Below are positions 1 to 34,434 of a stretch of 42,832 nucleotides of DNA, piece by piece. A program made the translations under genes and the position numbers. The DNA lies in IMG/VR virus record IMGVR_UViG_3300045107_000881, positions 1 through 42,832 of that record; one strand, given 5' to 3'. The notes below the pieces were generated by a model. It had not been told where the DNA came from. It saw nothing but the letters and a program-made list of their open reading frames with translations, and ran no database searches. How positions within the stretch are numbered: the first letter of the stretch is position 1; every line of letters starts with the position of its first letter. Source of the stretch: a virus.

Positions 1-564
1 ATGATCACTGCCATTCGCGAAGTCCGGCGGGCCAAGGGGCTGACGCTTGAAGAGGTGGCCGCCCGCTGCGAGCCGCCGACGACCGCACAGACGATCGGTC
101 GGCTGGAGATGGGCACGCGGACCGTCTCGGTGGGCTGGCTCAACCGGATCGCGAAGGCGCTCGGCGTCGATGCGAGCGATCTCGTTAAACTGCCGGACCG
201 GCCCGAGCTGCCAGTCGCGGCCCTGATCGGCCCCGATGGCGCACACGCGCCGCGCAAGACGGCCGTCGTGCTCCCGCCGCGCGCCGAACCGGCGCTGATC
301 GCGGTGATCGCCGAAGCGTCAGTCGGCGATTATCGTGCCGGCGACGAGATCTGGTGCGAGCGGCTGGCCCCCGAGGCTTTCGGCGCCGCGCTGAACCGCG
401 ACGTGCTCGTCCCCCGCCCGGCCGGGCGCTTTGCCTTTGGGCGACTGCTCGGGCGCGAGGATGGCAAGATCCACATGCTCCCGCTCGGCGCCGGCGCGCG
501 CCAGCAGGTCTATCAGGACCCGGCCTGGATCGCGCGCGCTGTCCGGTTGGTGCGCACGCTCTAG
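1..564 (+). CDS. XRE-family HTH regulator with degenerate S24-like C-terminal domain
   Basis: This 187-residue cytoplasmic DNA-binding protein has an N-terminal XRE helix-turn-helix at about residues 5-60 (IREVRRAKGLTLEEVA, then the recognition segment TAQTIGRLEMG). The C-terminal half, about residues 95-187, reads like the barrel of LexA/CI-type S24 domains (GDEIWCE, GRFAFGRLLG, IHMLPLG). I do not see the usual catalytic Ser and Lys context, so self-cleavage is unlikely. It stands outside the phage, just upstream of the tRNA-Val gene, and is probably a host chromosomal regulator. The window begins exactly at its ATG, so its promoter is not visible. A phage origin cannot be fully excluded. 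Confidence 0.8.
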   Translation: MITAIREVRRAKGLTLEEVAARCEPPTTAQTIGRLEMGTRTVSVGWLNRIAKALGVDASDLVKLPDRPELPVAALIGPDGAHAPRKTAVVLPPRAEPALIAVIAEASVGDYRAGDEIWCERLAPEAFGAALNRDVLVPRPAGRFAFGRLLGREDGKIHMLPLGAGARQQVYQDPAWIARAVRLVRTL

Positions 565-610: not shown

Positions 611-686
611 GGGCGGTTAGCTCAGTTGGTAGAGCATCTCGTTTACACCGAGAGGGTCGGCGGTTCGAGCCCGTCACCGCCCACCA
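611..686 (+). tRNA. tRNA-Val (anticodon TAC)
   Basis: A full cloverleaf is visible. The acceptor stem is GGGCGGT/ACCGCCC, the D-arm GCTC/GAGC, and the anticodon stem TCTCG/CGAGA around loop TTTACAC with anticodon TAC at 644-646. The T-arm is GGCGG-TTCGAGC-CCGTC, the discriminator is A at 683, and CCA is encoded at 684-686. The gene lies directly at the left border of the prophage, and tyrosine-integrase phages commonly integrate into the 3' half of tRNA genes. It is therefore the probable attL/attB. Its partial duplicate (attR) would lie right of 42832 and cannot be seen. Confidence 0.95.
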
Positions 687-754
687 AGAAAATCAGGCAC
701 TTAGCGCGATGTCCCGACAGGTTCGGGTGGTACGCGAGAACCGGCCAAGCGCTT

Positions 755-787: not shown

Positions 788-824
788 CACCCCCGCGCCG
801 GTCTGTGTTTGAGGGAGGACGGTG

Positions 825-1016
825 ATGGCGGAAGTGACGCAGGCTGACCGCGAGACGGCCTGGATCATCGCCCGGTTCTTTCTCGGCAACAGCGGCAGCT
901 TCCCCGACGAACTGCGCGACGGGCGGATCGAGCGCCATTTCCTACTCGACGTGCTGGCGAAGCATCGCACCGCGACTGGTGATTGGCTCCCCGCCTCGCC
1001 GTCCGCCAAATCCTGA
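825..1016 (+). CDS. Small phage protein of the TQADRE family
   Basis: The 63-residue protein begins M-A-E-V-TQADRE. That opening is shared with the small gene at 41486-41713 (M-T-E-I-TQADRE), so the two appear to be paralogues. No catalytic or membrane motif is visible. A GGGAGG ribosome site at 813-818 fits the ATG at 825; a GTG at 822 is also in frame. It is the first gene of the plus-strand cluster behind the tRNA. Its function is unknown. Confidence 0.7.
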   Translation: MAEVTQADRETAWIIARFFLGNSGSFPDELRDGRIERHFLLDVLAKHRTATGDWLPASPSAKS

Positions 1017-1028
1017 AAGGTGAAGATG

Positions 1029-1226
1029 ATGAGTGAGGCAGTTTGGAAGCGATATCAGAACGACTTCAACAACCTAACCGACGCGCAGATCGACGACGAG
1101 ACGCGCCGATGCCGCGATGCTGTCGAGGAAGCCGAGGATTGGCTTGAAGCCGTTGCTGCGTGGGAAGCTGCTGGCAAGCCCCGCCGCGCCCTTCTGGAGA
1201 ACCCCCATGCTGGAAAGGAACTGTGA
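1029..1226 (+). CDS. Small hypothetical phage protein (acidic, helical)
   Basis: This protein of about 65 residues is rich in Asp and Glu (DAQIDDETRRCRDAVEEAEDW) and looks wholly helical. A GAAAGG ribosome site just upstream supports ATG 1029; GTG 1020 and ATG 1026 are in-frame alternatives. The stop codon overlaps the next start (TGATG at 1224-1228), showing translational coupling. I do not recognise its function. Confidence 0.6.
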   Translation: MSEAVWKRYQNDFNNLTDAQIDDETRRCRDAVEEAEDWLEAVAAWEAAGKPRRALLENPHAGKEL

Positions 1227-1402
1227 TGAAAGGTGATCTGCGCTGCATTGAAGGGCGTCTCTGGCGGCACGATCCCCACGCCGACGATCCCGACCTTGAA
1301 ACCGACATCGGCCAATGTCCCGACTGTTCCGGAGATGGCTGCGGCGACGATGGCGAGCCGGTGAGCAAGGCCGGCCGGTCGCAAAGGTGGCTCAATGGAT
1401 AG
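1226..1402 (+). CDS. Small Cys-rich protein with CPDCxGxGC motif
   Basis: A 58-residue protein that starts in the overlap of the preceding stop, with a GGAAAGGAA ribosome site upstream. It contains a CPDCSGDGC knuckle followed by Asp and Gly. A nearly identical knuckle (CPDCDGRGC) occurs in the larger Cys-rich gene at 37605-37967. This is probably a small metal-binding protein, but four well-placed zinc ligands are not obvious. Function unknown. Confidence 0.55.
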   Translation: MKGDLRCIEGRLWRHDPHADDPDLETDIGQCPDCSGDGCGDDGEPVSKAGRSQRWLNG

Positions 1403-1589
1403 CCTCTCCACACGCATCTCCGCCGCGAGCGGGCCGAGCAGGGAGCGCGAAGAAGCTGCGAACGTCTGCATCCACGCCGACCCCCGCTGCATCGATGATC
1501 CGTGCCCATATGGCATCTGGCGCGTGCTGTGCGATCCATCCCTCCGCGCCCACGAGCAGGCAGGAACGAAGGAAACCGACGATGAATAA
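1395..1589 (+). CDS. Small hypothetical phage protein
   Basis: A 64-residue frame overlaps the preceding gene by 8 nt and the following one by 8 nt. It has four Cys in its middle part (VCIHADPRC, DDPCP, VLCD), which could bind a metal. Its 3' coding end (1554-1576) matches the 3' end of the next gene (1849-1871) at 20 of 23 positions, so the two gene ends share ancestry. No family is recognised. Confidence 0.5.
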   Translation: MDSLSTRISAASGPSREREEAANVCIHADPRCIDDPCPYGIWRVLCDPSLRAHEQAGTKETDDE

Positions 1590-1881
1590 TCAGGACAGCG
1601 GCTATGCGTCGAGCGCGATTTGCTTCGCCGCCGAACAGATCAAGCAAGCATGGCAGGAGGCCGCGTGGGAGCAGATGCGCCCGAGCGTCGTGCTCAAGCC
1701 TGTGTTGTCCAAGGACGGCAGCATGTGGTGCGCTCTGCTCGGCGACGACCTGATGGCCGGCGTTTCCGGCTTCGGCGAGACACCAGCCAAGGCAATGTAT
1801 GCCTTCGATCAGGCGTGGCACAGCCCAAAAGGCTATCACACGATCCCGGAGCAGGCCCGAACGAAGGAGACGGGGAAGTGA
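1582..1881 (+). CDS. Hypothetical phage protein
   Basis: A 99-residue protein with a compact alpha/beta look (ICFAAEQIKQAWQEA; MWCALLGDDLMAGVSGFGETPAKAMYAFDQAW). The central part resembles short phage proteins with a DUF-type strand-helix layout that adjust to a GFGETPAKA motif. A GAAGGAAAC ribosome site precedes the ATG. It overlaps the next gene by 4 nt (GTGA). Function unknown. Confidence 0.65.
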   Translation: MNNQDSGYASSAICFAAEQIKQAWQEAAWEQMRPSVVLKPVLSKDGSMWCALLGDDLMAGVSGFGETPAKAMYAFDQAWHSPKGYHTIPEQARTKETGK

Positions 1882-2066
1882 GCGAATACCCCAACCGCGA
1901 GCAAGGTAAGCGGATGCTGGAAGCTATCGGCGACTTGGCCGGGGCGATCTATGCGCACAACATGGATCGCGACCGACGCGAGAAGGTGCGAGTGGCGCTA
2001 AGAACCTTGATTGACGAGGTGCTGATCGTCGCCGCCCGCCACCACCAGGAGCAAACCGATGACTGA
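1878..2066 (+). CDS. Small hypothetical phage protein
   Basis: A 62-residue helical protein that starts with GTG in a GTGA overlap with the preceding stop. The ribosome site is GGAGACGGGG. It has two amphipathic helices (GKRMLEAIGDLAGAIYAHN; VRVALRTLIDEVLIVAARHH) and no recognised motif. Its tail EQTDD resembles the ends of the two preceding proteins. Confidence 0.6.
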   Translation: MSEYPNREQGKRMLEAIGDLAGAIYAHNMDRDRREKVRVALRTLIDEVLIVAARHHQEQTDD

Positions 2067-2385
2067 ACCGAGCGAGGAAGTGCTGCGGGAGGCGCGAGCG
2101 CTGACGATAGCTGCTTGCCGCATCACCGGATGGGACGGCGTTGCTGCGCGCTTAGAGAAAGGCTGGACGCCCGAACCGGGCACGCGGGAAGCTGACTTGC
2201 TGGAGAGCTATTCCACCCTCCTCTCCGAACTCTCGCGCCTGCGGGCCGAGGTGGAGGTGTTCCGGAGGGCGTTGGAGGCGATCGTATCGATTTCGGACAG
2301 CGACGAAGAAGAGCTGTGGGCCGTAATCGCAACGAGAATGGCACGCATCGCCCGCACCGCACTCGGAGGCGCGCAACATGGCTGA
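2059..2385 (+). CDS. Hypothetical phage protein with coiled-coil segment
   Basis: A 108-residue protein. Residues 45-80 (LLESYSTLLSELSRLRAEVE...) form a probable coiled coil, which suggests self-association. It overlaps its neighbours by 8 nt on both sides. The junction with the next gene carries a 16-nt sequence (2372-2387) that is repeated exactly at the following junction (2565-2580). Function unknown. Confidence 0.65.
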   Translation: MTEPSEEVLREARALTIAACRITGWDGVAARLEKGWTPEPGTREADLLESYSTLLSELSRLRAEVEVFRRALEAIVSISDSDEEELWAVIATRMARIARTALGGAQHG

Positions 2386-2578
2386 TCCAGACGCCTACAC
2401 CTTTGAAGAAATCAGCGCCGAAGCCTTCAAGGCGCTGCCCGGCCATGTCCGGCAGATGAACGCGGTTCTCTACAAGTTTTCCGAAGGCGGTGAGATCGTG
2501 GGCCGCGAGGTATTTATCGATTACGCCCTGCCCTCGGTCTACTTCCGCGCTGTTCGCAAGGAACCGCAACATGGCTGA
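2378..2578 (+). CDS. Hypothetical phage protein
   Basis: A 66-residue protein beginning MADPDAYTFEEISAEAFKALP and probably folding as a small alpha/beta unit. Its start overlaps the previous stop by 8 nt (ATGGCTGA), and its own end repeats the same arrangement with the next gene. No known motif is visible. Confidence 0.6.
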   Translation: MADPDAYTFEEISAEAFKALPGHVRQMNAVLYKFSEGGEIVGREVFIDYALPSVYFRAVRKEPQHG

Positions 2579-2924
2579 TCTTGTCGAGACGCTGGCGCGG
2601 AAGCTAGCGAGCCGAGAGGCGATCGCTGCGGAACGCGGCGCGAAGGCGGATGCGGAGAGGTGGCGGCAGCGTATCGAAGCCGAGCCCGAAAAGCGCGTCA
2701 TGTTCGAGGGCTTGCAGCAGATGGCAGAGCGATTGGCTATCCGCGCCTTGGAGCCAGCCCGTGCGAAAGCTCGGGGTACGCTGCTCTTCCTCGCCGACAA
2801 CATCACGCCGAGGATGGTGGAGGCGGCAAGAGAGCAAGCGACGCATCGGGCTTCGTCCGCGATCCCTGAATACACGATGCGGATTATCCTCGCCGCCGCG
2901 ATCCGCGCGGAAGCTGGAGAGTGA
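2571..2924 (+). CDS. Hypothetical phage protein, helical
   Basis: A 117-residue, highly charged and largely helical protein (LARKLASREAIAAERGAKADAERWRQR). It starts at an ATGGCTGA overlap identical to the one at 2378. No enzyme motif is seen. It lies between two unknown genes in the same overlapping operon. Confidence 0.6.
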   Translation: MADLVETLARKLASREAIAAERGAKADAERWRQRIEAEPEKRVMFEGLQQMAERLAIRALEPARAKARGTLLFLADNITPRMVEAAREQATHRASSAIPEYTMRIILAAAIRAEAGE

Positions 2925-2926
2925 AG

Positions 2927-3097
2927 ATGCATATCCGCTTTACTGGAAGAAGAGGATGGAAGCAGGTGTTCCTCCTAACGCTCTGCGCAGTTGCGACGAG
3001 CGTTACGGGGGACGTCGTAGCGGTCGCCGTCTTTTTGTCAGCGGCGTCCATCATCGCGGCAATCTACGACGTACAACCGGGGAAAAGCGATGGATGA
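2927..3097 (+). CDS. Tiny membrane protein
   Basis: A 56-residue frame starts 2 nt after the preceding stop and overlaps the next start by 8 nt. After a basic N-terminus (HIRFTGRRGWKQ) there are two hydrophobic stretches, VFLLTLCAVATSV and DVVAVAVFLSAASIIAAI, compatible with one or two membrane passes. The charge pattern suggests a cytoplasmic N-terminus. Its function is unknown. Its place in a cluster of small accessory genes would fit a superinfection-exclusion or other cargo role, which is speculation. Confidence 0.6.
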   Translation: MHIRFTGRRGWKQVFLLTLCAVATSVTGDVVAVAVFLSAASIIAAIYDVQPGKSDG

Positions 3098-3350
3098 AGA
3101 ACTTCGCGCGGCCATTGAGCACACGAAGCAGCGAATAGCCGATGCCGTCCCGCCGCTCCCGACTAAGAGACCTGCGAAGCGACGCGAGGATGTCCCCACA
3201 AACGTCATCAGCTTTGACGGGCATAAGGCGCAGCGCTACATCGAGCGCTTCGGCTTGACGAACTTCTGCCGGCTTGTGAGCGCGAGCTGCCTTTTCGAGT
3301 TCAGAGGCCATCAGGTTCTCCAAAAGGTGGATCGCCCCCCTTTAACTTGA
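3090..3350 (+). CDS. Hypothetical phage protein
   Basis: An 86-residue protein starting inside the preceding gene. The first half is helical and charged (MDEELRAAIEHTKQRIADA), and a proline-lysine hinge follows (PPLPTKRPAKRRED). It is the last gene of the plus-strand small-gene cluster. A 104-nt gap to the PEP-CTERM gene follows. No function is recognised, and the last about 20 residues look poorly conserved in character. Confidence 0.5.
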   Translation: MDEELRAAIEHTKQRIADAVPPLPTKRPAKRREDVPTNVISFDGHKAQRYIERFGLTNFCRLVSASCLFEFRGHQVLQKVDRPPLT

Positions 3351-3425
3351 TTTACGACAAGAGTCTCGTCTCATCCCGGGGCGTTCACATCCGTTCCGCT
3401 AGACACGGTTGACCATGAAGCAGAG

Positions 3426-3452
3426 CCTCGCCCCTCAATCTCAGGGGTGAGG
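3426..3452 (+). promoter_or_regulatory. RBS-sequestering hairpin before the PEP-CTERM gene
   Basis: CCTCGCCCCT (3426-3435) pairs with AGGGGTGAGG (3443-3452) over 10 bp with one G-T wobble and a 7-nt loop. The 3' arm contains the only ribosome-site-like sequence (GGGGTGAGG), and the start ATG is at 3455. Closed, the hairpin would block initiation; opened by temperature, a protein or an RNA it would allow it. Upstream, TTGACC (3408-3413) is a possible -35, but no good -10 follows. Confidence 0.55.
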
Positions 3453-3454
3453 CA

Positions 3455-4009
3455 ATGATTCGATATGTTCTGGCTGCATTGGCGGCCCTGCTCACGTGCG
3501 CGCCGGCAAGTGCGGCAATCGTCTACGACCTGGATGTGGATGAGTACAACCCATCAGCCGCGCTCAGCGCCGACCTGCCCAACGGCACTTACGATATCGA
3601 GATGACGAGTTCGATGCAGGCTTTGCTGCGCGTCTATTACTTCGTCGTGTACCGGAGATGCAGCCCTGTGGACGGCGGAAGCTATTTTTGCATGCGCTAC
3701 AGCGGCGGCTATGAAGTCTGGAACGATTATTATGCGACGCCCGATCAGCCGCTCGTGCTCAATGGATTCGAGGCGCCGAACAGCATCCGGATCTTCGATC
3801 CGAACAGCTCAAACTACGACGAAGAAACGCGACGCTATCGATTCATGATGCGGATCGAGAACGCGCCGGCCGGCTCCTTTGCGCGGCTGACCATACAGCC
3901 TGTGCCCGAGCCTGGCGCATGGGCGATGATGATTGTCGGCTTCGCCGCAGTTGGAGGCGCGCTTAGGGCAGGACGGCGCCTTTCGTTCCGACCGCAGGTT
4001 TCAGCGTAA
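3455..4009 (+). CDS. Secreted PEPxxWA-CTERM sorting-domain protein (phage cargo)
   Basis: The 184-residue protein has a signal peptide at residues 1-21 (MIRYVLAALAALLTCAPASA). A beta-rich, Tyr-rich body follows. The C-terminal sorting signal is PVPEPGAWAMM, then a hydrophobic span IVGFAAVGGAL and basic residues RAGRR. This is the PEPxxWA-CTERM signal, recognised by exosortases that anchor or release surface proteins in biofilm-forming alphaproteobacteria. No exosortase is encoded here, so a host enzyme must act. The frame runs 12 residues past the usual RR end (LSFRPQVSA tail), and its last 47 nt overlap the 3' end of the convergent spike gene. It is a lysogenic-conversion candidate. Base composition appears lower in GC than in its neighbours. 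Confidence 0.8.
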   Translation: MIRYVLAALAALLTCAPASAAIVYDLDVDEYNPSAALSADLPNGTYDIEMTSSMQALLRVYYFVVYRRCSPVDGGSYFCMRYSGGYEVWNDYYATPDQPLVLNGFEAPNSIRIFDPNSSNYDEETRRYRFMMRIENAPAGSFARLTIQPVPEPGAWAMMIVGFAAVGGALRAGRRLSFRPQVSA

Positions 4010-5744
4010 GGACGCTGCGCACCAGAGCGCGAATGGCGTCGGAACTGAGCGCGCCATAAGCGCCGGATAGAGCGCCGCTAGAGAACCAACAGCCGTCGCC
4101 GCCGCGCTTGGTGAACCCGCTCGCGAAAACGGTATCGGGGGAGTTGGAACCACCCGCAGCGGCGGTGTAGTCCACGAGAACATTGCCATCATTTGTCAGC
4201 GTGCCGGTGAAGCCTGGCGTCTGCCCGATCGTCGCAAACCCGACGTTGTTGCGCAGCGTCGTGCTCGAACTGAAGCTCTCACAGTTGCCGAACGGCGCGA
4301 AATATGGCTGGCCGAGCGCGCCCGGCAGGCCGTTGGTATTGACGGGTGCGTCAGGCGGGCACGTCTGCGTGTTATGCTCGGCGATGAGGTCCATGCCTTG
4401 CGAGCTGATCCCGTAGTTGCCGTTTCCTGCGAAGGCGCAGCCGACAACCACCACTCTGCCCCCATAGCTAACACCATTGTCTCGCGCGCTGTCCATAAAG
4501 AGCATGAGCATGTTGCGCTGGAGCATGACCGAATAGCTCGGCGGAACCATCGGCGCGATGATCCCGCTGGACTGTTCGATGATGACGTTGAACGGGCGCG
4601 ATCGCAGGCCAATGTGCTGCCAGCCGTTGACGGTGCCGCTCGTGTGCGTCGGCTCGGTCGAGCCGCGCGCCGCGGTGCCGATCTTCTTATAGAGCCGGCC
4701 GTTGGTCGCCATGAGGTGCTGGCCGTCGTTGATCGTTGTCGTGCTAGTTATGCTATTCGTGCCGGGTGGCGACAGATAGCGGCCATTCCAGCCGATGCAG
4801 TCTGTGCCCTTGCTCTGGAACGAGTCCGTGTGCGGCACGTCGCTATAGATCGGATAGTAGAGATCGGAACGATCCCAGGCATCCGTCCATACATTGTCAT
4901 AGCCCCAGTAGGTGATCTCGTCCGAAGGAAGCACGCCGTACGGGGCGGTGCTTTCGTTGTATGCAACCCCCAACGGAAAGGTGGTGTTGAAGAACTGCCG
5001 AATGAGGTTTTTGCTGACCTCGTGATAGTAGCAGCCCCGCAACTCGGCGCCTCCGCCCACGCCATAGAACGAGCATCCACGGACGATCGCGGTGTGCCCC
5101 CACTCGACATAGATCGGCGCCGGGAAGTTCTGCCAATCTGTCGGGCCTTTGCCGGACATCCACAGCAGCCCGAACTGACAACCTTCGAAAATCACGCGCG
5201 CTGCCGTAGTCGCGTCGATAGCTGCATTGTCCGATCGATAATCGATCTTGATCGTCCATGGCCCGTTGCCATCGAAGTTGGGATTGGCGTTGCCCGGCCA
5301 TTTGACGTTCCGAATGTGGAGACCGCACGCCTGGGTGATGCCGAGCTTGATCCGGCATTCGGTCGTCATGTTCTCGCCCTCAACGAGAACACCGCCACCA
5401 ATGCCACCGCCGAAGTCCCAGTTGTTGTTCCAGTTGATAGCCGCGCCGTCGAGCGCCGTCCCCTTTAGGATAACCTTGAACCAGCGGTTGGCGGCCTTGT
5501 TCAGTCTTGCGGTGTTCAAGGCAGAAAGGAAGCTGGCGCTGTCTGTTGCCTCCATCACGTCGCCCGGCGCGATGGCCTGCCCCTGATACCCCGGCCAGGC
5601 GTTCGCGCGCACCGCGTCCATTGATGCGATGTGGGTGAGCGCGGTACTCGACAGGTACGGACGGATTGATGGTAGAGCGCTCGGCGGCGTCGGCGTGACC
5701 GTCGCCCCCCGCAGCCGCAGCTTCAGGATGTTGCGATTGCTCAT
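3963..5744 (-). CDS. Tail spike or fibre with right-handed beta-helix, possible depolymerase
   Basis: The 593-residue protein is the last gene of the late operon. A short N-terminal segment (about 1-60) may attach to the tail. Next comes a long stretch with pectate-lyase-like repeats of the type VLVEGENM, LHIRNVKW, RVIFEGCQFG, IVRGCSFYGVGG, VVVGCAFAGNGNYGI and NTLRNNVG, characteristic of a right-handed parallel beta-helix. Such spikes bind, and often cleave, host capsule or O-antigen. The specific sugar cannot be told. It overlaps the upstream gene by 4 nt (ATGA). Its last 15 codons overlap the convergent PEP-CTERM gene. Confidence 0.85.
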   Translation of the reverse strand: MSNRNILKLRLRGATVTPTPPSALPSIRPYLSSTALTHIASMDAVRANAWPGYQGQAIAPGDVMEATDSASFLSALNTARLNKAANRWFKVILKGTALDGAAINWNNNWDFGGGIGGGVLVEGENMTTECRIKLGITQACGLHIRNVKWPGNANPNFDGNGPWTIKIDYRSDNAAIDATTAARVIFEGCQFGLLWMSGKGPTDWQNFPAPIYVEWGHTAIVRGCSFYGVGGGAELRGCYYHEVSKNLIRQFFNTTFPLGVAYNESTAPYGVLPSDEITYWGYDNVWTDAWDRSDLYYPIYSDVPHTDSFQSKGTDCIGWNGRYLSPPGTNSITSTTTINDGQHLMATNGRLYKKIGTAARGSTEPTHTSGTVNGWQHIGLRSRPFNVIIEQSSGIIAPMVPPSYSVMLQRNMLMLFMDSARDNGVSYGGRVVVVGCAFAGNGNYGISSQGMDLIAEHNTQTCPPDAPVNTNGLPGALGQPYFAPFGNCESFSSSTTLRNNVGFATIGQTPGFTGTLTNDGNVLVDYTAAAGGSNSPDTVFASGFTKRGGDGCWFSSGALSGAYGALSSDAIRALVRSVLTLKPAVGTKGAVLP

Positions 5745-7026: not shown

Positions 7027-7259
7027 TGCTCACCTTCCTTTCTGATGCCGGCCTCAGCGGCTTTCCGGCCCGCGCTGGACGAGCCGAACTCGTAGTTGAC
7101 GACAGCCGAGCCCCAGCCGAGCACAAGGCCGATCGCGAGCAGCAGGGCTTCGCGGTTCGAGGACGGGATCGCGATGAAGTAGAGCCCGGCTAGAGCCGCC
7201 AGCCCGCCGAGGATGACGAGCACGCCAACGGCGTACCGGAAGTGCTGGCGGTCGTTCAC
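7023..7259 (-). CDS. Two-pass small membrane protein, candidate holin or antiholin
   Basis: The 78-residue protein has two hydrophobic segments, YAVGVLVILGGLAALAGLYFIAI (about 9-31) and ALLLAIGLVLGWGSAVVNYEF (about 38-58). A hydrophilic tail (GSSSAGRKAAEAGIRKEGEQ) follows. Such two-segment proteins between endolysin and spanins are often class II holins. A second holin candidate lies at 9176-9460, so this one might be the accessory or regulatory member. It overlaps both neighbours by 4 nt. Confidence 0.65.
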   Translation of the reverse strand: MNDRQHFRYAVGVLVILGGLAALAGLYFIAIPSSNREALLLAIGLVLGWGSAVVNYEFGSSSAGRKAAEAGIRKEGEQ

Positions 7260-7852
7260 AGGATGAGCGCCTTCGCTGCGACGAGCCGGAGTTTGCGATC
7301 CTCCAGCCCGTTCGTGCCGCCGTTCACTGCCTTGGTGACGGCCAGAACGTCATCGCGGTCGGCCATCGCGTTGATCTTGCGGCTGGTCCAATAAAGGCAG
7401 GCCGTCAGAATGCCGAGTGAGGGCAGCGCCGCGATTTCGGGGTGGCTTTCGAGGTCGATGCCAATCTGTTGCCCGATGCGGCGATAGTTTGCCCGCCCGG
7501 TGATCTGGAGCGGCCCACGCCCAGCATAGCGCCGCCCGTCGCCCTTGACGGTGTTGCCGAGGTCCGCGCGCCCCTCATATCCGAGCTGCGCCTTGGTCGG
7601 CCCCCAAATCTCTTCCATCCAGCGGAAGCCGCCGCTTTCGTGCCCGACCTGAGCCATGAAGTGCGCAAGCCGCAGGCCGTTGTCGAGGATGCCGTGGTCG
7701 CGGAAGTGCACGTTGGCTCCGAGCGCCAGTTCACCCGCGATCGACGGAGACGCGCCGCACCGCGCGAACAGCGCCCGCAGCGTGTTGCGGCCCATGATGC
7801 CGTCGTCCGCAACGCCGAGGCGGCGCTGTAGGGCCTTTATGTTGATCGTCAT
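7256..7852 (-). CDS. Endolysin, glycoside hydrolase family 19 type
   Basis: The 198-residue lysozyme-like enzyme cleaves peptidoglycan at lysis. The N-terminus (IKALQRRLGVADDGIMGRNTLRALFARCG) is a short peptidoglycan-binding-like segment. The catalytic body holds the GH19 signatures MAQVGHESGGFRWMEEI (with the acid Glu of HESGG) and RRYAGRGPLQITGRANYRRIG. No signal peptide is seen, so export depends on a holin. ATG 7852 is preferred because it overlaps the upstream stop by 3 nt; an extension to 7921 is possible but lacks coupling. Confidence 0.9.
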   Translation of the reverse strand: MTINIKALQRRLGVADDGIMGRNTLRALFARCGASPSIAGELALGANVHFRDHGILDNGLRLAHFMAQVGHESGGFRWMEEIWGPTKAQLGYEGRADLGNTVKGDGRRYAGRGPLQITGRANYRRIGQQIGIDLESHPEIAALPSLGILTACLYWTSRKINAMADRDDVLAVTKAVNGGTNGLEDRKLRLVAAKALIL

Positions 7853-8100
7853 CAATCTTCCCCCGTCAGCGCATGGCGTGCGAGCGCAAACCGGCTCGTC
7901 ATGTGAATGATGATGCTGCACAGCCGGCGCACCTGTTCGGCGGGCAGCGGCTCGCCTGTGCTAACGTCGTGCAGGGCTCGTTCGGCGATCCGGTCCATGT
8001 CGCTCGTCGACAGCCGCGCCGGGTGCGCCACGCACGGGCAGCGCATCTCGCCGCCCTCGTATTGGAACACGCCCGTGTCGCCGCAGTTGGGGCAGGTCAT
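7852..8100 (-). CDS. Small zinc-ribbon protein
   Basis: The 82-residue protein begins MTCPNCGDTGVFQYEGGEMRCPC, a four-Cys zinc ribbon. A helical part follows (LSTSDMDRIAERAL; AEQVRRLCSIIIHMTSRFALARHAL). ATG 8100 is chosen because it overlaps the stop of the phosphoesterase gene by 4 nt. Its role between phosphoesterase and endolysin is unknown. Confidence 0.65.
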   Translation of the reverse strand: MTCPNCGDTGVFQYEGGEMRCPCVAHPARLSTSDMDRIAERALHDVSTGEPLPAEQVRRLCSIIIHMTSRFALARHALTGED

Positions 8101-9714: not shown

Positions 9715-10223
9715 CATGGCAGCAACTCTTCCCAATCGACGTTCGCGGCGGCGATCTTGGCTTCCAGCGTCTCGGCCAGCGTCACCGCGCGCTTGGCGCC
9801 GATCCTGCGCCCCTCGATCGCCGCGCCGAGCAGCGCCCACATGTTCGCGTTGGCGATCACGGACTGCGCAACCTCTGTCAGCGTCTGCTCGGTCGTTTGC
9901 GCTTCGGCGGCAAGGAACGGGAAGTCGCCGGCGCTCGGCTGCGCTTCGGCCACAAACGCGCGAGCCTCGCGTTCCTTGCGATCATAGGTGAGCTGCTGCC
10001 CCGGGATGTCGGTAATGAACCGCTTGCGGAACTCGCCCGCTTCGAAGTCGATCTTGGCGTGCAGGCTCGCGTCGGTCGGCATGTCCGCCCAGCCGAAACC
10101 GTCGCGCCAGTAGCAGCCGAGGGCCACTTCCTCGATACGCTCGCCAGCCTGGATCGTCGGCTCTTCAGCGTGCGGGCCTGAGACTTTCACCAAGTCGGCG
10201 ATGCGAACCACGATCCACATCAT
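9714..10223 (-). CDS. Tail-associated protein with DUF4376-like C-terminus
   Basis: The 169-residue protein lies directly behind the tail hub gene. The C-terminal half (YDRKEREARAF; GDFPFLAAEAQTTEQTLTEVAQSVIANANMWALLGAAIEGRRIGAKRAV) resembles the helical DUF4376 domain found at the C-terminus of phage tail-fibre accessory proteins. A chaperone or fibre-attachment role is inferred. It overlaps the hub gene stop by 4 nt. Confidence 0.6.
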   Translation of the reverse strand: MMWIVVRIADLVKVSGPHAEEPTIQAGERIEEVALGCYWRDGFGWADMPTDASLHAKIDFEAGEFRKRFITDIPGQQLTYDRKEREARAFVAEAQPSAGDFPFLAAEAQTTEQTLTEVAQSVIANANMWALLGAAIEGRRIGAKRAVTLAETLEAKIAAANVDWEELLP

Positions 10224-12385
10224 GCCGGCCTCATGTAGCAGAGTTCGGGCCGCTCGACGCCGCCGCCATTATTCACAACCACGGCGCGGAGATCATAGGC
10301 TTGCGTCTGCCCGCTGGTATTGGTGAATGTCGCGCCCGCCACACCCAGTGTCACCGGATCGCCCGTGCCGTTGTTCTGCGTGTTCGTGCCGCCAGTCAGC
10401 GTCACCCACGCGCCGCCAGTCGGGCGCATTTGCACCTGTAGCGAGTTGCCCGTTGCCGCCGTCGTGGTGGCATCCGTTCGATAGCGCGCCTCGACAGTCG
10501 CGACCTGGCTATCGTTGAGCAGGATCTGGCTTGAGTAAGTCGTCGTGCCAGCCGTGATCGTCTCGGCTGGCAGACCGCCGCTCGGCCCCTGCGCCCCGAC
10601 CCGTGCTCGAAGTCGCCAATATGCGTTTTCCGTCGTCGGCAGTGTCGGCGGCCGGTTGATCGTCGCAGAGACGTGATCGACGAGAGCGCCCCAGGTCGAG
10701 CCCTGATCCTGCGTCTCGTCGCCCGCCGAATAGCTGATGCCGCTCGTCCAGTTTCCTTGGTCGGCGTTGCGCGTCAGCCCATAGAGCGGGTGCTTCGTGT
10801 AATCATAGTTGGTCGGCGCGGCGGGCGTGACAGGCGCCGACTCTTCCGCCGCCCATGCATAGAGCGCCGCGTTTTCCTCGATCAGCACCATCTCGCACAC
10901 GCCGTTGAACTGGATCGTGCGCTCGACCACGCGGAACGGCTTGTTGACCCAGCCCAGCGGCGCGAAGTTCAGCCGAACCGGATCGCCGACCAGCACTCCC
11001 CAGCCCTTCGCATTGAACGCCGCAGTGAACGTGCCGCCATATTGCGACCGCTGGAGAACCTGCTTTGCGAGGCGCTGCGCCTGGCTTGCCGATTGCACGC
11101 CCGGCAAGTCGAACGTCAGGATGCGATCGATGCCATCGGGCGCGGCGAAGGATGCCTGCGGATAGTCGACAAGCTGATACAGCGACGCCGGATCGGTCCA
11201 GCGTCCGCGCACGACGTTGCGGCTTTCTTCCAGCGGCGTCGTCTGCTGCCAGTCGAACGGCCCCACAATGTCGGCTTCGCTGAACGTCGCAACCGGAGTG
11301 GACAAATCATTGTACAAGATTGAGAGCGCGAGCTTGCCGCCATTGTCGCGCAGCACGCCCGCCATGCTCGCGTTGAATGAGCCGAGCACCGAGCCGCCGT
11401 CCTCGTCCTCAGCGAAGATGCCGTCGAAGCGATAGCGCGGCTCAGTGCCGCCGGCCGCCAGCGATACCGTCTCGGCGCAGATATTCCTGGCAGTGATGAA
11501 TGTGCCCATATCAATACGCGACGGCGGCACACCACGCCCGACCGCGAGCTTGCCGTTGATCTTCCAGCCGAGCAGCCATGTCAGCTCGCACAGCGCGGCA
11601 TTGCGGCCGATGTCCACGCCGCCCGCCGTGAAGGCCCAGGTCGTCTGGTCGTTCGCGCGCATCGTGCCTGAGCCGCCGACCGTGCTGTCGCGTGCTGGAT
11701 CATATACCGGCATTCCCTTGCCGATGATCGTCATGCGGCTGGGCACGCCGTTCGCGAACGGGCTTTCGGTCTTCTTGGTGTTGCCCGTCAGCTTGTACTG
11801 CATCCAGACATAGGCGCATCCGGTCAGCCGGCGATTGTTCGCGGCGCTCCAAACGCTATCGATGTTGACCATGTTCGCCGACGTACCGACCGTGCGCGGC
11901 GTGACCGTCAAGTAACCGACGAACTCACCCTGCGCGCCGCCAGCCGAAGTCCAGGCCAACTTGTCGTCAAGATAGATGCTATCAATCGACGTGACCGCGT
12001 GCGAGGCGCAGACAATGACCTGGTTGTAGAAGTCTTTGTTGCTGCCGGTGTAGGACTGGTAAACGAGATCCGTCGCGAATGCCGTGACCCCGAAGCACAC
12101 CTTGCGCGGCGCTTGCGGATTGATCGTAGCGCGCAGCCTGTCGCTGCTAGCACTGTTCGCCCTATTGCCCTTCGGTCCCAGCCCGACTGCCTTTGCGGCA
12201 TAGCCGAGCGCCGCGGTGACGCCGAGCGCGGATACGACGCCGACAATCGTTGACGCAACGCCGAGCGCCGCGAACGTGCCGCCGCCGATGCCAACGATCA
12301 GGCCCGACAGCGCCGGCCCGACGCCCGGCACAAATGCCACCGCAATCGCAGCGACCGCCGCGACGACTTTCAGGACTTTGCCCAC
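10220..12385 (-). CDS. Central tail hub / tip attachment protein (host specificity type)
   Basis: At 721 residues this is the largest phage protein. It opens with a Gly/Ala-rich hydrophobic stretch (residues 1-70, VAAVAAIAVAFVPGVGPALSG), which recalls the membrane-interacting region seen in tail hub proteins of this type. The central part contains hub-like segments (GIDRILTFDLPGVQSASQAQRLAKQVLQR; VGDPVRLNF). The C-terminal part (about 590-721) is Thr-rich with fibronectin or fibre-like character. It follows the small baseplate proteins in the usual siphovirus order. It probably forms the baseplate hub and contacts the host. The start is GTG at 12385, immediately after the upstream stop. Confidence 0.8.
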   Translation of the reverse strand: MGKVLKVVAAVAAIAVAFVPGVGPALSGLIVGIGGGTFAALGVASTIVGVVSALGVTAALGYAAKAVGLGPKGNRANSASSDRLRATINPQAPRKVCFGVTAFATDLVYQSYTGSNKDFYNQVIVCASHAVTSIDSIYLDDKLAWTSAGGAQGEFVGYLTVTPRTVGTSANMVNIDSVWSAANNRRLTGCAYVWMQYKLTGNTKKTESPFANGVPSRMTIIGKGMPVYDPARDSTVGGSGTMRANDQTTWAFTAGGVDIGRNAALCELTWLLGWKINGKLAVGRGVPPSRIDMGTFITARNICAETVSLAAGGTEPRYRFDGIFAEDEDGGSVLGSFNASMAGVLRDNGGKLALSILYNDLSTPVATFSEADIVGPFDWQQTTPLEESRNVVRGRWTDPASLYQLVDYPQASFAAPDGIDRILTFDLPGVQSASQAQRLAKQVLQRSQYGGTFTAAFNAKGWGVLVGDPVRLNFAPLGWVNKPFRVVERTIQFNGVCEMVLIEENAALYAWAAEESAPVTPAAPTNYDYTKHPLYGLTRNADQGNWTSGISYSAGDETQDQGSTWGALVDHVSATINRPPTLPTTENAYWRLRARVGAQGPSGGLPAETITAGTTTYSSQILLNDSQVATVEARYRTDATTTAATGNSLQVQMRPTGGAWVTLTGGTNTQNNGTGDPVTLGVAGATFTNTSGQTQAYDLRAVVVNNGGGVERPELCYMRPA

Positions 12386-22613: not shown

Positions 22614-22811
22614 TTAAGCCTTTCGTGCCTTGCGCCGCGGCTGGGCGGGCGCAGCATCGGTTTCGGTCGGAGGGTCCAGAACCTGCGCATCGCCTCGGGA
22701 AAGGAGTGTGGCGGCATCCTCGCCGAACGCCGCCAACTCTTCCGCCGTGAGGATGTCCCCCGAGCCGAACCTGCGTTCGGCCGGAGGAACCCAAAGCACC
22801 TGGACGCGCAT
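22614..22811 (-). CDS. Small protein downstream of capsid gene
   Basis: The 65-residue protein starts in the capsid gene stop (1-nt overlap). It has an N-terminal strand (RVQVLWVPPAERRF) followed by an acidic helix (LTAEELAAFGEDAATLL) and a basic tail (AQPRRKARKA). Similar small genes follow capsid genes in related phages. Its function is unknown. Confidence 0.55.
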   Translation of the reverse strand: MRVQVLWVPPAERRFGSGDILTAEELAAFGEDAATLLSRGDAQVLDPPTETDAAPAQPRRKARKA

Positions 22812-24019
22812 CAGCTCGCGGCGTTGACGAACACCTTTACGGCGCCGCCCACGTCGATCAGGTTGCCACCCGAACGCAGCCAGGCGAGGAAGCCGACCTG
22901 GCCCTTCTTGGCGAAAGCCGAGTCCGTGTAGCGCTGGACGGTAACGTCCATCACGTCGCGGATCTTGTAGAACGAGAAGTCGCCGAACAGGATCGACTTC
23001 GCACTCGCCGCCATGCTGGCAACCGACTGGTTGATCTGGATCGGATAGCCGAGCAGACGATCCGGCGCGCCGCCGGGGTTCGTCGACTCGTATCCCGGAA
23101 CGAAGATCGGCCGGTTCGAGCTGTCCTTGATCTTGCGGATCTCGCGCAGCGTCGTGTCGTTGAACATGAAGCGGCAGTTGCCGAGTTCACGATACGCCGA
23201 ATCGACCGAGTGCTGGAGATTGACGAGGCTGTCGTAGGTGACGGCAGTCACCTGCGAAGTCGCGTTCGCCGCGGTCACGCCCACGGCCGCCGCCGTCACG
23301 ACGCCGGTCGGCTGGTTGGTGCCGGTGCCGGTCGTGAAGTGCGTGTTCGTGATGCGCCCGAGGCGGGTCGACAGACGCGAGATCACGAACGCTTCGATGT
23401 CGACGTTCGAGTCCATCAGCAGCTCGATCGGAACAGTGACAACCTTGGAGCTGTACTTGTAGACCGGCAGCGCCTTGGTGCCGAACGCGATGTCGAGATC
23501 GGTCGCCGAAGCGTTTTCCGCCAGGATTTCGCCGACTTCCGCAGTGCCGTCCGAAGTCGGGAACTGCATCGGGTTGCCCTGCGTGGTCCGCATCACGTCC
23601 GAAACGGCGCGCATACCGCCGAACTGGAGCAGCGCGTCGAGAACGGTGCCGGCGACTTCGGTAGCGACAGTGAAGCCGCCTTCCGAGTTGGTCGTGGTCG
23701 ACATGGTGTTGCGCAGGATTGCCCAGTCGGCGTCCTTGATCGCGCGGTCGCCTTCGCGCACCCACTTGGCGAACAGCGCCGAAGCGGTCGAACGCTCGTC
23801 GTGCGCCACACGGTCGGCGGCGTCGGCGATCTGGTTGCCGAGCTGCTCGTTCGCGACACGCTCGATGGCGGCCTGAGTGTGCTTGATGCGGTCGTCGATC
23901 GCCTGAAGCTCATTGTCGAGCGCGTCGAAACCTTCGGGGGTGTAGTCCTTCGAGTTCACGAACTCGTTCAGCGCCTTCGCCTTTGCCGCGCGCTGTTCGC
24001 GGAGAGCCTGAATGCTCAT
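22811..24019 (-). CDS. Major capsid protein, HK97 fold
   Basis: The 402-residue protein shows the HK97-family layout. An N-terminal coiled-coil delta domain comes first (LREQRAAKAKALNEFVNSK...LDNELQAIDDRIKHTQAAIERVANEQ, about 1-65), removed by the prohead protease. The shell domain follows (NTMSTTTNSEGGFTVATEVAGTVLDALLQFGGMRAV; RLLGYPIQINQSVASMA; ILFGDFSFYKIRDVMDVTVQRYTDSAFAKKGQVGFLAWLRSGG). An AAGGAAG ribosome site supports ATG 24019; ATG 24037 lies within the U-tract of the preceding hairpin and is unlikely. Confidence 0.95.
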   Translation of the reverse strand: MSIQALREQRAAKAKALNEFVNSKDYTPEGFDALDNELQAIDDRIKHTQAAIERVANEQLGNQIADAADRVAHDERSTASALFAKWVREGDRAIKDADWAILRNTMSTTTNSEGGFTVATEVAGTVLDALLQFGGMRAVSDVMRTTQGNPMQFPTSDGTAEVGEILAENASATDLDIAFGTKALPVYKYSSKVVTVPIELLMDSNVDIEAFVISRLSTRLGRITNTHFTTGTGTNQPTGVVTAAAVGVTAANATSQVTAVTYDSLVNLQHSVDSAYRELGNCRFMFNDTTLREIRKIKDSSNRPIFVPGYESTNPGGAPDRLLGYPIQINQSVASMAASAKSILFGDFSFYKIRDVMDVTVQRYTDSAFAKKGQVGFLAWLRSGGNLIDVGGAVKVFVNAAS

Positions 24020-24037
24020 GCCGTGTCTTCCTTCCAT

Positions 24038-24061
24038 AAAAAAGGCCGCTCAAAGGCGGCC
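24038..24061 (-). terminator. Hairpin plus U-tract just upstream of the capsid gene
   Basis: On the minus strand GGCCGC pairs with GCGGCC around a 6-nt loop and is followed by six T residues. The element lies between the protease stop (24091) and the capsid ATG (24019). As with the major tail protein, an intrinsic terminator shape precedes the ribosome site by a few bases. It may cut read-through from the upstream genes or protect the 5' end of the capsid message. Confidence 0.75.
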
Positions 24062-24090
24062 CGTCACATCTGCTTTCGCGCGGCTTGCGC

Positions 24091-24843
24091 TTAGGCAGTC
24101 AGGAGCGAACGAGCGCGCGCCCGGCGGGCGTCGCGCTGGCGCGCAATCTCGGTGTTGTCGTTGACCGCTTCCGGGGCCGCTTCCTCGACCACGGAAGCGG
24201 GTTCGGGGGCGGGCTCAGGCGCCTTCGAATAGGCGCTCAGATCCCACACGTTCTTGACCTTGCCCTCGGCAACCTCGTCGGCCAGGCCGGCGTCGATCGC
24301 TTCCTGCGCCGACAGCCAGGTTTCCTCGTTCATAAGCGCGGCGAAGTCGGCCGCGGCCATTTCCTTGCCCCGACGTTTGGCAGCCGAGACGTAGGAGTCG
24401 GCGATGGAGCCGTCGATCTTGTCGAGCAGTGCGGCCGTCGACAGGAAGTCATCCTTGTTGCCTAGCGCGATCGTCCAGGCATTGTGGATCATCTGGAACG
24501 CGCCCTCGGCCATCACGACGCGATCGGCCGCAGCCGTCAGGAACGACGCAGCCGACGCCGCATAGCCGTCCACGTAGACTGTCACCGCGCCGTCATGGTC
24601 GCGGATCGCTTGGGCCATCGCACGCCCGCCAAACACGTCGCCGCCGGGGCTGTTGACGCGCACAGTCACATCGCCGGTCATGCCCCGCAGCGCCTTCACG
24701 AACGTCTCGCTCGACACGCCGCCGAACCATTCCGCGTCCGCGTCCGACGTGACGATCACGTCATAGACGTAGAGCGTGTTATCCTCGGCGCGGAACTCCC
24801 CGCGCTTGGCGTTACGCGCCAGGAGGTTGAGCAGCTTGTTCAT
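24091..24843 (-). CDS. ClpP-like prohead maturation protease
   Basis: The 250-residue protein has the ClpP/S14 core: NSPGGDVFGGRAMAQAI (oxyanion region), then VDGYAASAASFLTAAADRVVM with candidate nucleophile Ser97, and AFQMIHNAW with His120. A Pro/Glu-rich tail follows (APEPAPEPASVVEEAAPEA), which may act as an internal scaffold. It cleaves the delta domain of the capsid protein. ATG 24843 with GGGGAG upstream is preferred; it overlaps the portal gene by 32 nt. Confidence 0.9.
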   Translation of the reverse strand: MNKLLNLLARNAKRGEFRAEDNTLYVYDVIVTSDADAEWFGGVSSETFVKALRGMTGDVTVRVNSPGGDVFGGRAMAQAIRDHDGAVTVYVDGYAASAASFLTAAADRVVMAEGAFQMIHNAWTIALGNKDDFLSTAALLDKIDGSIADSYVSAAKRRGKEMAAADFAALMNEETWLSAQEAIDAGLADEVAEGKVKNVWDLSAYSKAPEPAPEPASVVEEAAPEAVNDNTEIARQRDARRARARSLLTA

Positions 24844-26086
24844 TCGCACTCCCCACCGGGTCCAGACTGTTGCCGTTCGCATCGGGCGGCAGGTTGAACT
24901 TCTCGCGCACCTCGTTGAGCTTCATGATCGGCCGTTCGCCCGCGCGACCAAGCGCAGTTCGATAGCCCTCGATCATCGTCTTGAAGTCGCCACGCTCCAG
25001 CTCGAACGTGTCAAACTCCGCGAACTTCGGCCCATTTACGAAGAACTTGCGGTTAATCTCGTTGTGAAACTTGTTCAGATGCTGGCGTAGCGTGTAGCGC
25101 ACGAAACCGATGCCCATCGCCTCGACGCCCGAGCCCCAGCTTGTCGTCTTTTCATTGTGTCCGATCATGAACGGCGGCACGCCGTAGATGCGGGCGATTT
25201 CCTCGACCTGGAACTGACGCGCCGCGATCAACTGCGCATCTTCCGCCGTAATCGACAGCGGCTCGACCTTCGTCCCGGAGCCCAGCACGGCCGGCTTGCC
25301 TGCGTTGTCCGCGCCTGCGTAGCGCTCGCGCCACCGCTCAGCGATCTGCTCGGCGGTTTCCGCGTTGATGACCTGATCCGTCGAGATCACAATATCGGGC
25401 CGCGCCGAGTTGGCGAAATACTTGCCCGCGTACTTCTGCGTCGCCAGCGCCACGGCGCCGGTCATGCGCAGGTGATGCTGAAGTGGCGACAGTCCCCGCA
25501 CGCCGTCAAAGCCGAAGCCGGCGACGTGCAGCATGTCGTCCTGTTCGAACACTTCCAAGCCCGACGAGCCAGGGACATACGGGTCGGCCGCAACCGCGTA
25601 GAGCAGCCGGTTCGTCTCCGGGTTGACCAAGACAGTCACCCGCTTCGGGTTGATCGGCTCCAGCGCCGAGATCCGCGCACCTGCGCGACGGATCGCCGCA
25701 AACCCGTCGCCTTGAAGCAGCAGCGACTGACAGAGAAACTCCCACCCCGACGCCGCCGACCAGCGCGGGCTGAACTGCTCGTTCAGCAGCCACCACAGAT
25801 CGTCATTCGCCAGCCGCTCCCGCGCACCATCTGGCGAACGGCGATAGATGTTCATCGGCAGGGACGCGATGGCGCCCGCGATCAGGTTAACGCACGCATA
25901 GACCGACGAGATCGTCAGAGCCGTGCGTTCATTCGGATAGGCGAGTTCACCCTCCATGCCCGAAACGAGGCGGTAGAAGTCCGAACCAGCGGCAAGCTGC
26001 GCAGACGCGGCAGGCGGGATGTCGCTCGCCCAGCCGGTCTGGTTCACAATGCCGAGCGCGCTAAGGACGCGACCCCAAGCGCTCAT
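24812..26086 (-). CDS. Portal protein, HK97 family
   Basis: The 424-residue protein has the family order: RTALTISSVYACVNLIAGAIASLPMNIYRR near residue 55, LLLQGDGFAAIRRAGARISALEPINPKRV, DDMLHVAGFGFDGVRGLSPLQ, and ARQFQVEEIARIYGVPPFMIGHNEKTTSWGSGVEAMG. It forms the dodecameric ring at the packaging vertex. The C-terminus (GSANEQAAQPPGA) is disordered. It overlaps the terminase gene by 4 nt. Confidence 0.95.
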   Translation of the reverse strand: MSAWGRVLSALGIVNQTGWASDIPPAASAQLAAGSDFYRLVSGMEGELAYPNERTALTISSVYACVNLIAGAIASLPMNIYRRSPDGARERLANDDLWWLLNEQFSPRWSAASGWEFLCQSLLLQGDGFAAIRRAGARISALEPINPKRVTVLVNPETNRLLYAVAADPYVPGSSGLEVFEQDDMLHVAGFGFDGVRGLSPLQHHLRMTGAVALATQKYAGKYFANSARPDIVISTDQVINAETAEQIAERWRERYAGADNAGKPAVLGSGTKVEPLSITAEDAQLIAARQFQVEEIARIYGVPPFMIGHNEKTTSWGSGVEAMGIGFVRYTLRQHLNKFHNEINRKFFVNGPKFAEFDTFELERGDFKTMIEGYRTALGRAGERPIMKLNEVREKFNLPPDANGNSLDPVGSANEQAAQPPGA

Positions 26087-27594
26087 ACGAAAATCTGCAC
26101 CGGCACGTCTTGCTCGGCGTCAACCGGAGCGACGCCGAAGGCCATCGTTAGCGCGACCATGCCATCGATCCTTCCTGCCGCCTTGGCCTTGTCGAGCTTG
26201 CGGTTGCCGGCCGGGTCCATCGTCACGACAGCGTTTGCCGCGCACATCGTCAGCACCGGGTGGTTGCCGTGCGCCACTTTCTCTTCGAGCAGGGCCGCTT
26301 CCAGGTCGCGAAACGCGGGCGAGATCGACTGGAACCCCTGCCCGAACTCGACGAACTTGGCGTCTATCTCGTCCTCGCCGAAACCTGCCTTGACCAGCCA
26401 CGGCCGCAGATGCTTGAACCCCCAGCGGTCGAACGCGATTTTTGCGATGTTATGCGTCTGGAACAGATGGCGCAGCCGAACCGCGACCCATTCGTACTCG
26501 ATCGCCCGCCCCGGCGTCGTCTCCAGCAGCCCCTCGCGCGCCCACACGTCATAGGGCACGCGGTCAGCCCGCGACTTGTCTCGCAAGCCCTCGCCCGGCA
26601 GCCAGAACGTCGGCCGCACGTTCCACTTGCCGTCGACGTGGGCCATCAGCACAAGCGCCGTCAAATCCTGGGTCGCGGACAGATCCAGTCCGCCGTAAAC
26701 GGGCGCCTGCCCCCAATCTTCCGCGATCTGCCCCCCGTTCGCCTGCCACACGGTGCGGCTGACAGCCGGATTGCTCGCATCAACCCGCTGGTTCAGCGTC
26801 AGGTTGCGGAAACTGTTCTCGCGCGACGGCATTCGATCCGCAGCGTCGGCCTGCTTCTCGACATCCTCCAGCGAGCGGAAAATGCCAAGCGCCGGGTTCG
26901 CCGCTTCCCACGCCTTGCGGTCGTGCAACTCGCACTCGGATGGCGCCGCATAGACGTGACTGACGATCGACGGGTCGTCCGACTTCGCCGCGTCGTCCAG
27001 CCATATGCTGAACAGGTCGGCGTCGGTCGGCGCCTGCGTCGAGATCGCCACCAGCAGCGGCGCCTCATGCGCGCCCTGCGCCGTCTCGATCGCCTCAATA
27101 AAGTCGTCCTGCGCGCCGCGGACCTGCCCCACTTCGTCCAGAATGGCGAGAACAGGCGAAAGCCCGTGGGCCGTCTGTCCGTCCGCCGCGAGCGCCCGAA
27201 ACTCCGTGTTCATAGTCAAGCCGATCAGCCGCTTGTTCGACGGGATCGGCCGCACGATCTTGGACAGCTCGGGCGAAAGCTGCACCATTTTCCACGCCAG
27301 ATTGAACACGACCGCCGCTTGGTCGCGCGACCGCGCGCCCGACACGATCTGCGCGTTCAACACCGCTTCCGGCCCGACCAGGTGGGCGAGCAGGATGCAG
27401 GCGATCAGCGCCGTCTTGCCGTTCTTTCGCGCGATCGACAGGTAAGCGCGCCGCGTGCCGGCCGGATTGTCGTAGACCGCCAGAATGAAGTCGCGCTGGA
27501 ACGGCAGCAGCTTTATCGGCTTGCCGACGAACTTGCCTTCAGGCGCGACGCAGTAGCGTTCGATGAAGGCGATTACGCGCTCGCCTCGGGTCAT
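26083..27594 (-). CDS. terL: Terminase large subunit
   Basis: The 503-residue packaging motor has an N-terminal ATPase with a deviant Walker A (SIARKNGKTAL, about 53-63) and Walker B (LAILDEVG, Asp153-Glu154). The C-terminal nuclease carries YGGLDLSATQDLTAL near 310, a downstream Asp in FDRWGFKHL, and RIDGMVALTMAFG near 485. The organisation matches HK97/P27-type terminases that cut cos DNA. It shares 1 nt with terS and 4 nt with the portal gene. Confidence 0.95.
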   Translation of the reverse strand: MTRGERVIAFIERYCVAPEGKFVGKPIKLLPFQRDFILAVYDNPAGTRRAYLSIARKNGKTALIACILLAHLVGPEAVLNAQIVSGARSRDQAAVVFNLAWKMVQLSPELSKIVRPIPSNKRLIGLTMNTEFRALAADGQTAHGLSPVLAILDEVGQVRGAQDDFIEAIETAQGAHEAPLLVAISTQAPTDADLFSIWLDDAAKSDDPSIVSHVYAAPSECELHDRKAWEAANPALGIFRSLEDVEKQADAADRMPSRENSFRNLTLNQRVDASNPAVSRTVWQANGGQIAEDWGQAPVYGGLDLSATQDLTALVLMAHVDGKWNVRPTFWLPGEGLRDKSRADRVPYDVWAREGLLETTPGRAIEYEWVAVRLRHLFQTHNIAKIAFDRWGFKHLRPWLVKAGFGEDEIDAKFVEFGQGFQSISPAFRDLEAALLEEKVAHGNHPVLTMCAANAVVTMDPAGNRKLDKAKAAGRIDGMVALTMAFGVAPVDAEQDVPVQIFV

Positions 27595-33876: not shown

Positions 33877-34119
33877 TTATGATCTCCGGCTATGGGGATG
33901 AATGGAAAACAGGCGCACCGCGTCGCTGGTCAGGGGTTCACGAGAGCCAGCGGCGCGGTGCACCAGGGGAGCGCGGATGGAGGGTCGCGCCCGATCGGCG
34001 GCAGTGCCGAAACGAAAAGCTGCGCGCGCCGTGAGCAAAGGGGTGAAGCTACGGCGCGCGCCTCCGGCCTTCAGGGGGCCGAAGAGGATTTCGGTGATTG
34101 GAGCGCCCCCGCGCGGCAT
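33877..34119 (-). CDS. Doubtful small gene between cro and the next regulator
   Basis: An 80-residue frame in operon orientation starts 8 nt after the cro stop (MPRGGAPITEILFGPLKAGG). It is Arg/Ala-rich and lacks a good ribosome site. Two plus-strand frames over the same stretch (33892-34203, 33902-34216) are no more convincing. The stretch 33875-34127 may be non-coding or carry a small real gene; I only lean to this frame because of its strand. Confidence 0.3.
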   Translation of the reverse strand: MPRGGAPITEILFGPLKAGGARRSFTPLLTARAAFRFGTAADRARPSIRAPLVHRAAGSREPLTSDAVRLFSIHPHSRRS

Positions 34120-34127
34120 GGTGGAGC

Positions 34128-34358: not shown

Positions 34359-34366
34359 TCCCCTTT

Positions 34367-34383
34367 GTTGCGATTTTCGGAAC
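34367..34383. promoter_or_regulatory. Operator 1 (cro-proximal)
   Basis: GTTGCGATTTTCGGAAC matches the perfect palindrome at 35054 in 15 of 17 positions. It lies 8 bp before the cro ATG, and a minus-strand TTGCCA (34392-34387) just beyond it could be the cro -35, so bound protein would block cro. Confidence 0.7.
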
Positions 34384-34401
34384 TTTTGGCAAGGGGGTAT
34401 T

Positions 34402-34418: not shown

Positions 34419-34434
34419 TGCCTAAGCTTGCCGA

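Follow-up and report, generated by a model that had tools for sequence, protein, structure and literature searches.

The locus examined here raises the question of whether a gene for an exosortase-tagged surface protein, found at one end of a viral sequence, belongs to the phage at all, and, if so, what a prophage could gain from it. The window, i.e., the whole stretch of DNA that was analyzed, is a 42,832-base virus contig from IMG/VR that opens with an ATG and closes with a stop codon, as is usual for trimmed proviruses, and it has host DNA at its left end. The gene in question (hereafter the PEP gene) sits within the phage, between phage modules, in a temperate siphophage. We consider it probable that the PEP gene is a moron for lysogenic conversion in a temperate sphingomonad siphophage, which uses the exosortase of the host for display of the product at the surface or in the matrix and gains exclusion or matrix properties in return. 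The features on which this reading depends are collected in Table 1.

Table 1. Features of the 42,832-base window and the evidence for each.
Feature	Position	Strand	Basis
Host flank HTH (XRE-type) gene	1..564	+	PF13560/PF01381; Sphingomonadaceae-wide
tRNA-Val(TAC), probable attachment site (attL side)	611..686	+	ARAGORN; identical tRNA in host genomes
Phage operon of about 11 small, tightly packed ORFs	822..3350	+	Relatives of ORF 1582-1881; absence from host genomes
Leader stem-loop, 11-bp stem GCCTCGCCCCT-CAATCTC-AGGGGTGAGGC, then AATG	3424..3457	+	Folding; ends just before ATG
PEPxxWA-CTERM protein gene (ATG start, 184 aa, TAA stop)	3455..4009	+	NF035944/PF07589 matches; codon use
Putative signal peptide, residues 1-21	3455..3517	+	By eye
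PEPxxWA-CTERM sorting domain, residues 150-175	3902..3979	+	NF035944 42.7 bits, cut-off 35
Terminal gene of tail module, 593 aa, probable spike	3963..5744	-	Position; sub-threshold Beta_helix match, E 0.0011
Virion structural protein, 262 aa	5741..6529	-	phrog_10356 E 1.3e-11
GH19-type endolysin	7256..7921	-	PF00182 35.2 bits
Tail tip / central fibre (J-like)	10220..12385	-	phrog_5616 E 2.7e-79, phrog_31 E 1.1e-31
Capsid, portal, HK97-type large terminase	22811..27594	-	PF05065; phrog_12; phrog_9
Transcriptional repressor (CI-like)	34098..35018	+	phrog_4 E 1.6e-26
Tyrosine integrase, last gene on record	41756..42832	+	PF00589; phrog_1 E 2e-55

The codon score of the PEP gene is +0.14 in its own frame vs. 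-0.18 to -0.52 in the other five, which identifies this frame, and none of the others, as the coding one. At the N-terminus, MIRYVLAALAALLTCAPASA-A follows by eye the n-h-c pattern of a Sec signal peptide; near the C-terminus, VPEPGAWAMMIVGFAAVGGALRAGRR is matched in a profile search by the PEPxxWA-CTERM family NF035944 with E 3.8e-11, above the curated NCBIfam cut-off, and by PF07589 with 22.7 bits against a Pfam cut-off of 20.7, so that the sorting signal proposed in the preliminary description is borne out by both profiles. The tag lies at the extreme C-terminus of the protein, where the hydrophobic AMMIVGFAAVGGAL is followed by the basic cluster RAGRR, and no other PEPxxWA-CTERM match occurs on the whole record. 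Judged by these features, the product is a predicted member of the PEPxxWA-CTERM class.

Between signal peptide and tag lies an acidic body of 14.6 kDa (127 residues, no lysine, two cysteines), for which no homologue was found in viral contigs, named phages, or plasmids. Searched alone, the body also had no match among genome contigs, and a comparison with the PDB returned weak antibody-like matches only; genome-contig matches of the entire protein center on the tag, and a few of them start further upstream, near residue 83-92, with 32-38% identity. A single-sequence AlphaFold model consists mostly of strands at a pLDDT of 48, a quality at which a fold comparison is not supportable. Because the body is without a homologue, it gives no sequence-based clue to function. 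The same searches bear on the possibility, raised beforehand as evidence against phage cargo, that the gene occurs in hosts free of the prophage: no such case was found, and only the tag region convincingly matches genome contigs.

The processing of the protein had been attributed to an exosortase of the host, which agrees with the absence of any detectable exosortase from the 42.8-kb record; similarly, among the matches listed, none of 50 viral records with PEPxxWA-CTERM genes carries one. The enzyme is present, one copy each, in all six genomes examined of the genus of S. changbaiensis, which gives the best flank match and may not be the genus of the phage's own host, and these genomes hold 20-59 PEPxxWA matches apiece. 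A host lacking the enzyme, which the preliminary description had named as a counter-indication, was thus not met within this nearest genus. Dependence of the PEP protein on a host exosortase is likely, with the host enzyme assumed from these relatives.

The translation signals of the gene also resemble those of host genes of its class. The PEP gene is preceded by a gap of 105 bp, and its AGGGG Shine-Dalgarno sequence lies within the 11-bp stem-loop; folding z-scores are -2.3 for 3345-3470 and -3.3 for a 53-nt segment at the start codon. Of 41 PEPxxWA genes in the nearest host genus (loci L258-L287 and L298-L357), 27 (66%) have an AGGGG leader and about 2% have a canonical AGGAG, GGAGG, or GAGGA motif. 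Among other secreted genes of the genus, taken as controls, the AGGGG and canonical motifs each account for 10%; many control start codons are probably misassigned, as indicated by a codon-like base composition upstream, yet the two gene sets still differ strongly in how often AGGGG occurs relative to canonical motifs. A second comparison gave similar figures. Hairpins with a z-score below -2 precede 18% of the host PEPxxWA genes vs. 5-7% of the controls, and AGGGG leaders may represent a common translational control of the whole host PEPxxWA set. A leader of this host style on a phage gene fits the capture of a host PEP-CTERM gene together with its own translation signal. Neither a sigma-70 nor a sigma-54 promoter was recognized near the PEP gene, with no sigma-54 excess within the window, and no consensus promoter or terminator was found for the gene.

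In order to place the gene among phages, named and uncultivated collections were compared. Two PEP-CTERM protein queries gave no match in 50,697 named phages, and neither did a 34-residue consensus tag, although low-complexity filtering makes the latter empty answer weak. A DNA pattern for VPEPxxWAxM matched at least 119 stretches of IMG/VR sequence, and in 80 loci among the matches listed, 83 ORFs end in the PEPxxWA motif, many of them with signal-peptide-like starts. Some of these loci may be host flanks, given a density of roughly one such gene per 55-130 kb in host genomes; others are clearly internal to phages, so that the initial view that temperate phages rarely carry such genes is not supported in that wording. 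For instance, contig L187 presents a J-like fibre (phrog_5616), a second tail protein, a 778-aa gene, an opposite-strand PEP gene overlapping the latter, and a GH19 endolysin, while L163 has a tail protein, a 1032-aa gene, an overlapping opposite-strand PEP gene, and an endolysin. L192 likewise combines a 734-aa gene, an overlapping opposite-strand PEP gene, and an endolysin, and in L159 a PEP gene overlaps a long gene in the same manner, with no endolysin seen. The long genes of L187, L163, and L192 (734-1032 aa) have no family match.

At a second type of position, the PEP gene lies beside or near genes for DNA polymerase, primase, RuvC, or helicase (L137, L165/L166, L203, L132/L176). On L165, L166, and L203 it immediately precedes a codirectional gene for a RuvC-like resolvase, with a 4-bp overlap in the first two, and one family with bodies 87-99% identical occurs on L132, L135, L156, and L176, with a helicase gene nearby on L132 and L176. 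The bodies of viral PEPxxWA proteins fall into many unrelated families, none of which includes the protein of the window. Among the matches listed, and by a crude count, convergence with a gene of at least 350 aa is not significantly more frequent in viral loci (18/78) than in host loci (18/121; p = 0.19); hence, the shared tail/lysis site rests on individual loci, and recurrence rather than enrichment is claimed. Predicted PEPxxWA-CTERM cargo is recurrent in uncultivated phages, with none found in named ones, and a literature search of limited depth returned no description of phage-encoded PEP-CTERM proteins.

The route that the product of such a moron would take can be drawn from the host system. 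In the model of Haft 2006 (PMC1569441), PEP-CTERM proteins with a C-terminal helix are processed by an exosortase, and because the steps of export, anchoring, and cleavage are described there, they are inferred for the PEP protein as well: translated from its own leader, it would leave the cytoplasm through Sec, stay anchored by its C-terminal helix, and be cut by the host exosortase near the PEP motif. The cleaved protein would then be set free or passed on to the envelope or exopolysaccharide, where the acidic body would alter what the cell surface offers. Among possible gains for the prophage, hindered adsorption of competing phages would be the likeliest, followed by an altered matrix or aggregation. 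In the lysogen, the gene may be expressed and may affect biofilm or receptors, the latter having been suggested at the outset. PEP-CTERM proteins bind or retain exopolysaccharide on Aquincola cells (PMC9850573), biofilm and motility in Nostoc need an exosortase (PMC12188702), and phage P22 encodes four systems, expressed from the prophage, that hinder superinfection (PMC10883804).

The PEP gene shares with the PEP-CTERM/exosortase system (EpsH, XrtA-type; NF035944 subtype) a putative signal peptide, the PEPxxWA motif, a transmembrane stretch, and an Arg-rich end, as well as the form of a single gene with a body devoid of homologues (PMC1569441). It differs from that system in being phage-borne, in an intergenic gap of 105 bp where that system has a long one, and in that processing is here predicted; moreover, it lacks the type of sigma-54 site reported from other Proteobacteria (PMC1569441). 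Similarly, it resembles prophage morons such as gtrABC and sieA of P22 (PMC10883804), as a single extra gene by the tail module, opposite to the late genes, with an envelope-directed product; unlike them, it would use the exosortase sorting route, and any exclusion or conversion phenotype is putative. With PepA-type flocculation-associated proteins (PMC9850573), it has in common the tag class and a proposed matrix role; however, it shows no homology beyond the tag (NF033554, 20.3 bits against a cut-off of 80), and PepA-type proteins are not phage-borne.

The most serious competitor to a moron is a neutral passenger, i.e., a host PEP-CTERM gene recently caught by the phage and of no benefit to it. 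Capture would be easy with 20-59 such genes in each sphingomonad genome, and the GC content of the PEP gene (59%, below the phage mean of 64%) and a body unrelated to those of other phages speak for this reading. Moreover, L293, a viral contig with a relative of ORF 1582-1881 and the closest layout to that of the window, has a similar operon of small ORFs facing a 987-aa gene with no PEP-CTERM gene between them. Phage genomes, however, shed DNA for which they have no use, and the PEP gene retains an intact frame, a complete tag, and a strong leader; in addition, comparable places in other phages hold such genes, with some families nearly identical across contigs. On balance, a passenger is fairly unlikely. 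As a separate observation, at the place occupied in the window by the PEP gene, L293 has a predicted 95-nt tRNA-Val (GAC) between its small-ORF operon and the long terminal gene (L293:9703-9797), possibly a tRNA of the phage itself or a site of attachment.

The position beside the tail module, together with the failure to recognize a lysogenic promoter, could instead suggest a role in the lytic cycle, in which an envelope or virion-associated protein is made with the late genes rather than in the lysogen. The PEP gene converges on the terminal tail gene with an overlap of 47 bp, and the claim that it lies next to a tail spike is upheld as regards the adjacency, while the identity as a spike is only plausible, the sole match of that protein being a sub-threshold beta-helix. 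The strand of the PEP gene, however, is opposite to that of the late operon, so that it is readable only from its own promoter or that of the small-ORF operon, and exosortase tags are otherwise found on stable proteins of the surface or matrix (PMC1569441, PMC9850573); a lytic role is accordingly improbable. To the right of the PEP gene also lies a gene for a RecE-like exonuclease, along with the repressor and the integrase. The structural protein gene at 5741-6529 has no match in 399 host genomes. A search for a close relative of this phage found none, and no PEPxxWA match passed the cut-off in 31 terminase-related records, most of which are fragments. The window further includes a calcineurin-like metallophosphoesterase in the tail/lysis part (8097-9071) and, just upstream of the integrase, a C-5 cytosine DNA methyltransferase (PF00145; 40299-41489) with a long ORF in an overlapping frame (40294-41475).

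The left border, finally, separates host from phage DNA. Bases 1-564 show roughly 70-79% DNA identity across Sphingomonadaceae, with S. changbaiensis as the best match at 79%, and the order of the HTH gene and tRNA-Val is the same in the two host genomes compared, where similarity stops at the tRNA 3' end; the prophage therefore most likely starts at about 687, preceded by host flank and tRNA-Val up to base 686. No second copy of the tRNA was seen on the record, and attR lies beyond it. In one S. changbaiensis locus (L253, G009:C53:129000-135000), the tRNA-Val has the inverted orientation and is separated from the HTH gene by 9 bp, whereas L251, L252, and the window have a tandem arrangement. 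Bases 700-3460 are absent from 399 family genomes save for matches of at most 60 bp and are thus not host backbone. Klebsiella and Vibrio phages encode relatives of ORF 1582-1881, as do five viral contigs, one of which matches it at 58% along nearly the full length; the remaining small ORFs give weak PHROG matches only. With phage genes on both flanks, the PEP gene lies inside the phage, as the preliminary description had assumed. That it is instead host flank DNA, with the prophage starting at about 4010, is very improbable: a trimmed record with host DNA at its left end, the abundance of such genes in hosts, and small ORFs without a strong PHROG match would permit it, but the phage relatives of ORF 1582-1881, the similar operon opposite a long terminal gene in L293, the lack of 700-3460 in the family genomes, the end of host synteny at the tRNA, and the overlap with the tail gene all argue otherwise.

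Most PEP-CTERM proteins have no known function. The recurrence of tagged genes in uncultivated phages suggests that a host sorting enzyme is used by phages to change the surface of the host cell. More tentatively, the PEP-CTERM genes located in early regions or where tail and lysis modules join could form a widespread, fast-changing class in phages of exosortase-bearing bacteria, by which the host exosortase is borrowed for proteins excluding rivals or remodelling the matrix. If phages carry PEP-CTERM genes repeatedly, the exosortase route would be a place where phage and host meet, and the removal of a single gene from a lysogen would provide a direct test of the role of such a protein.
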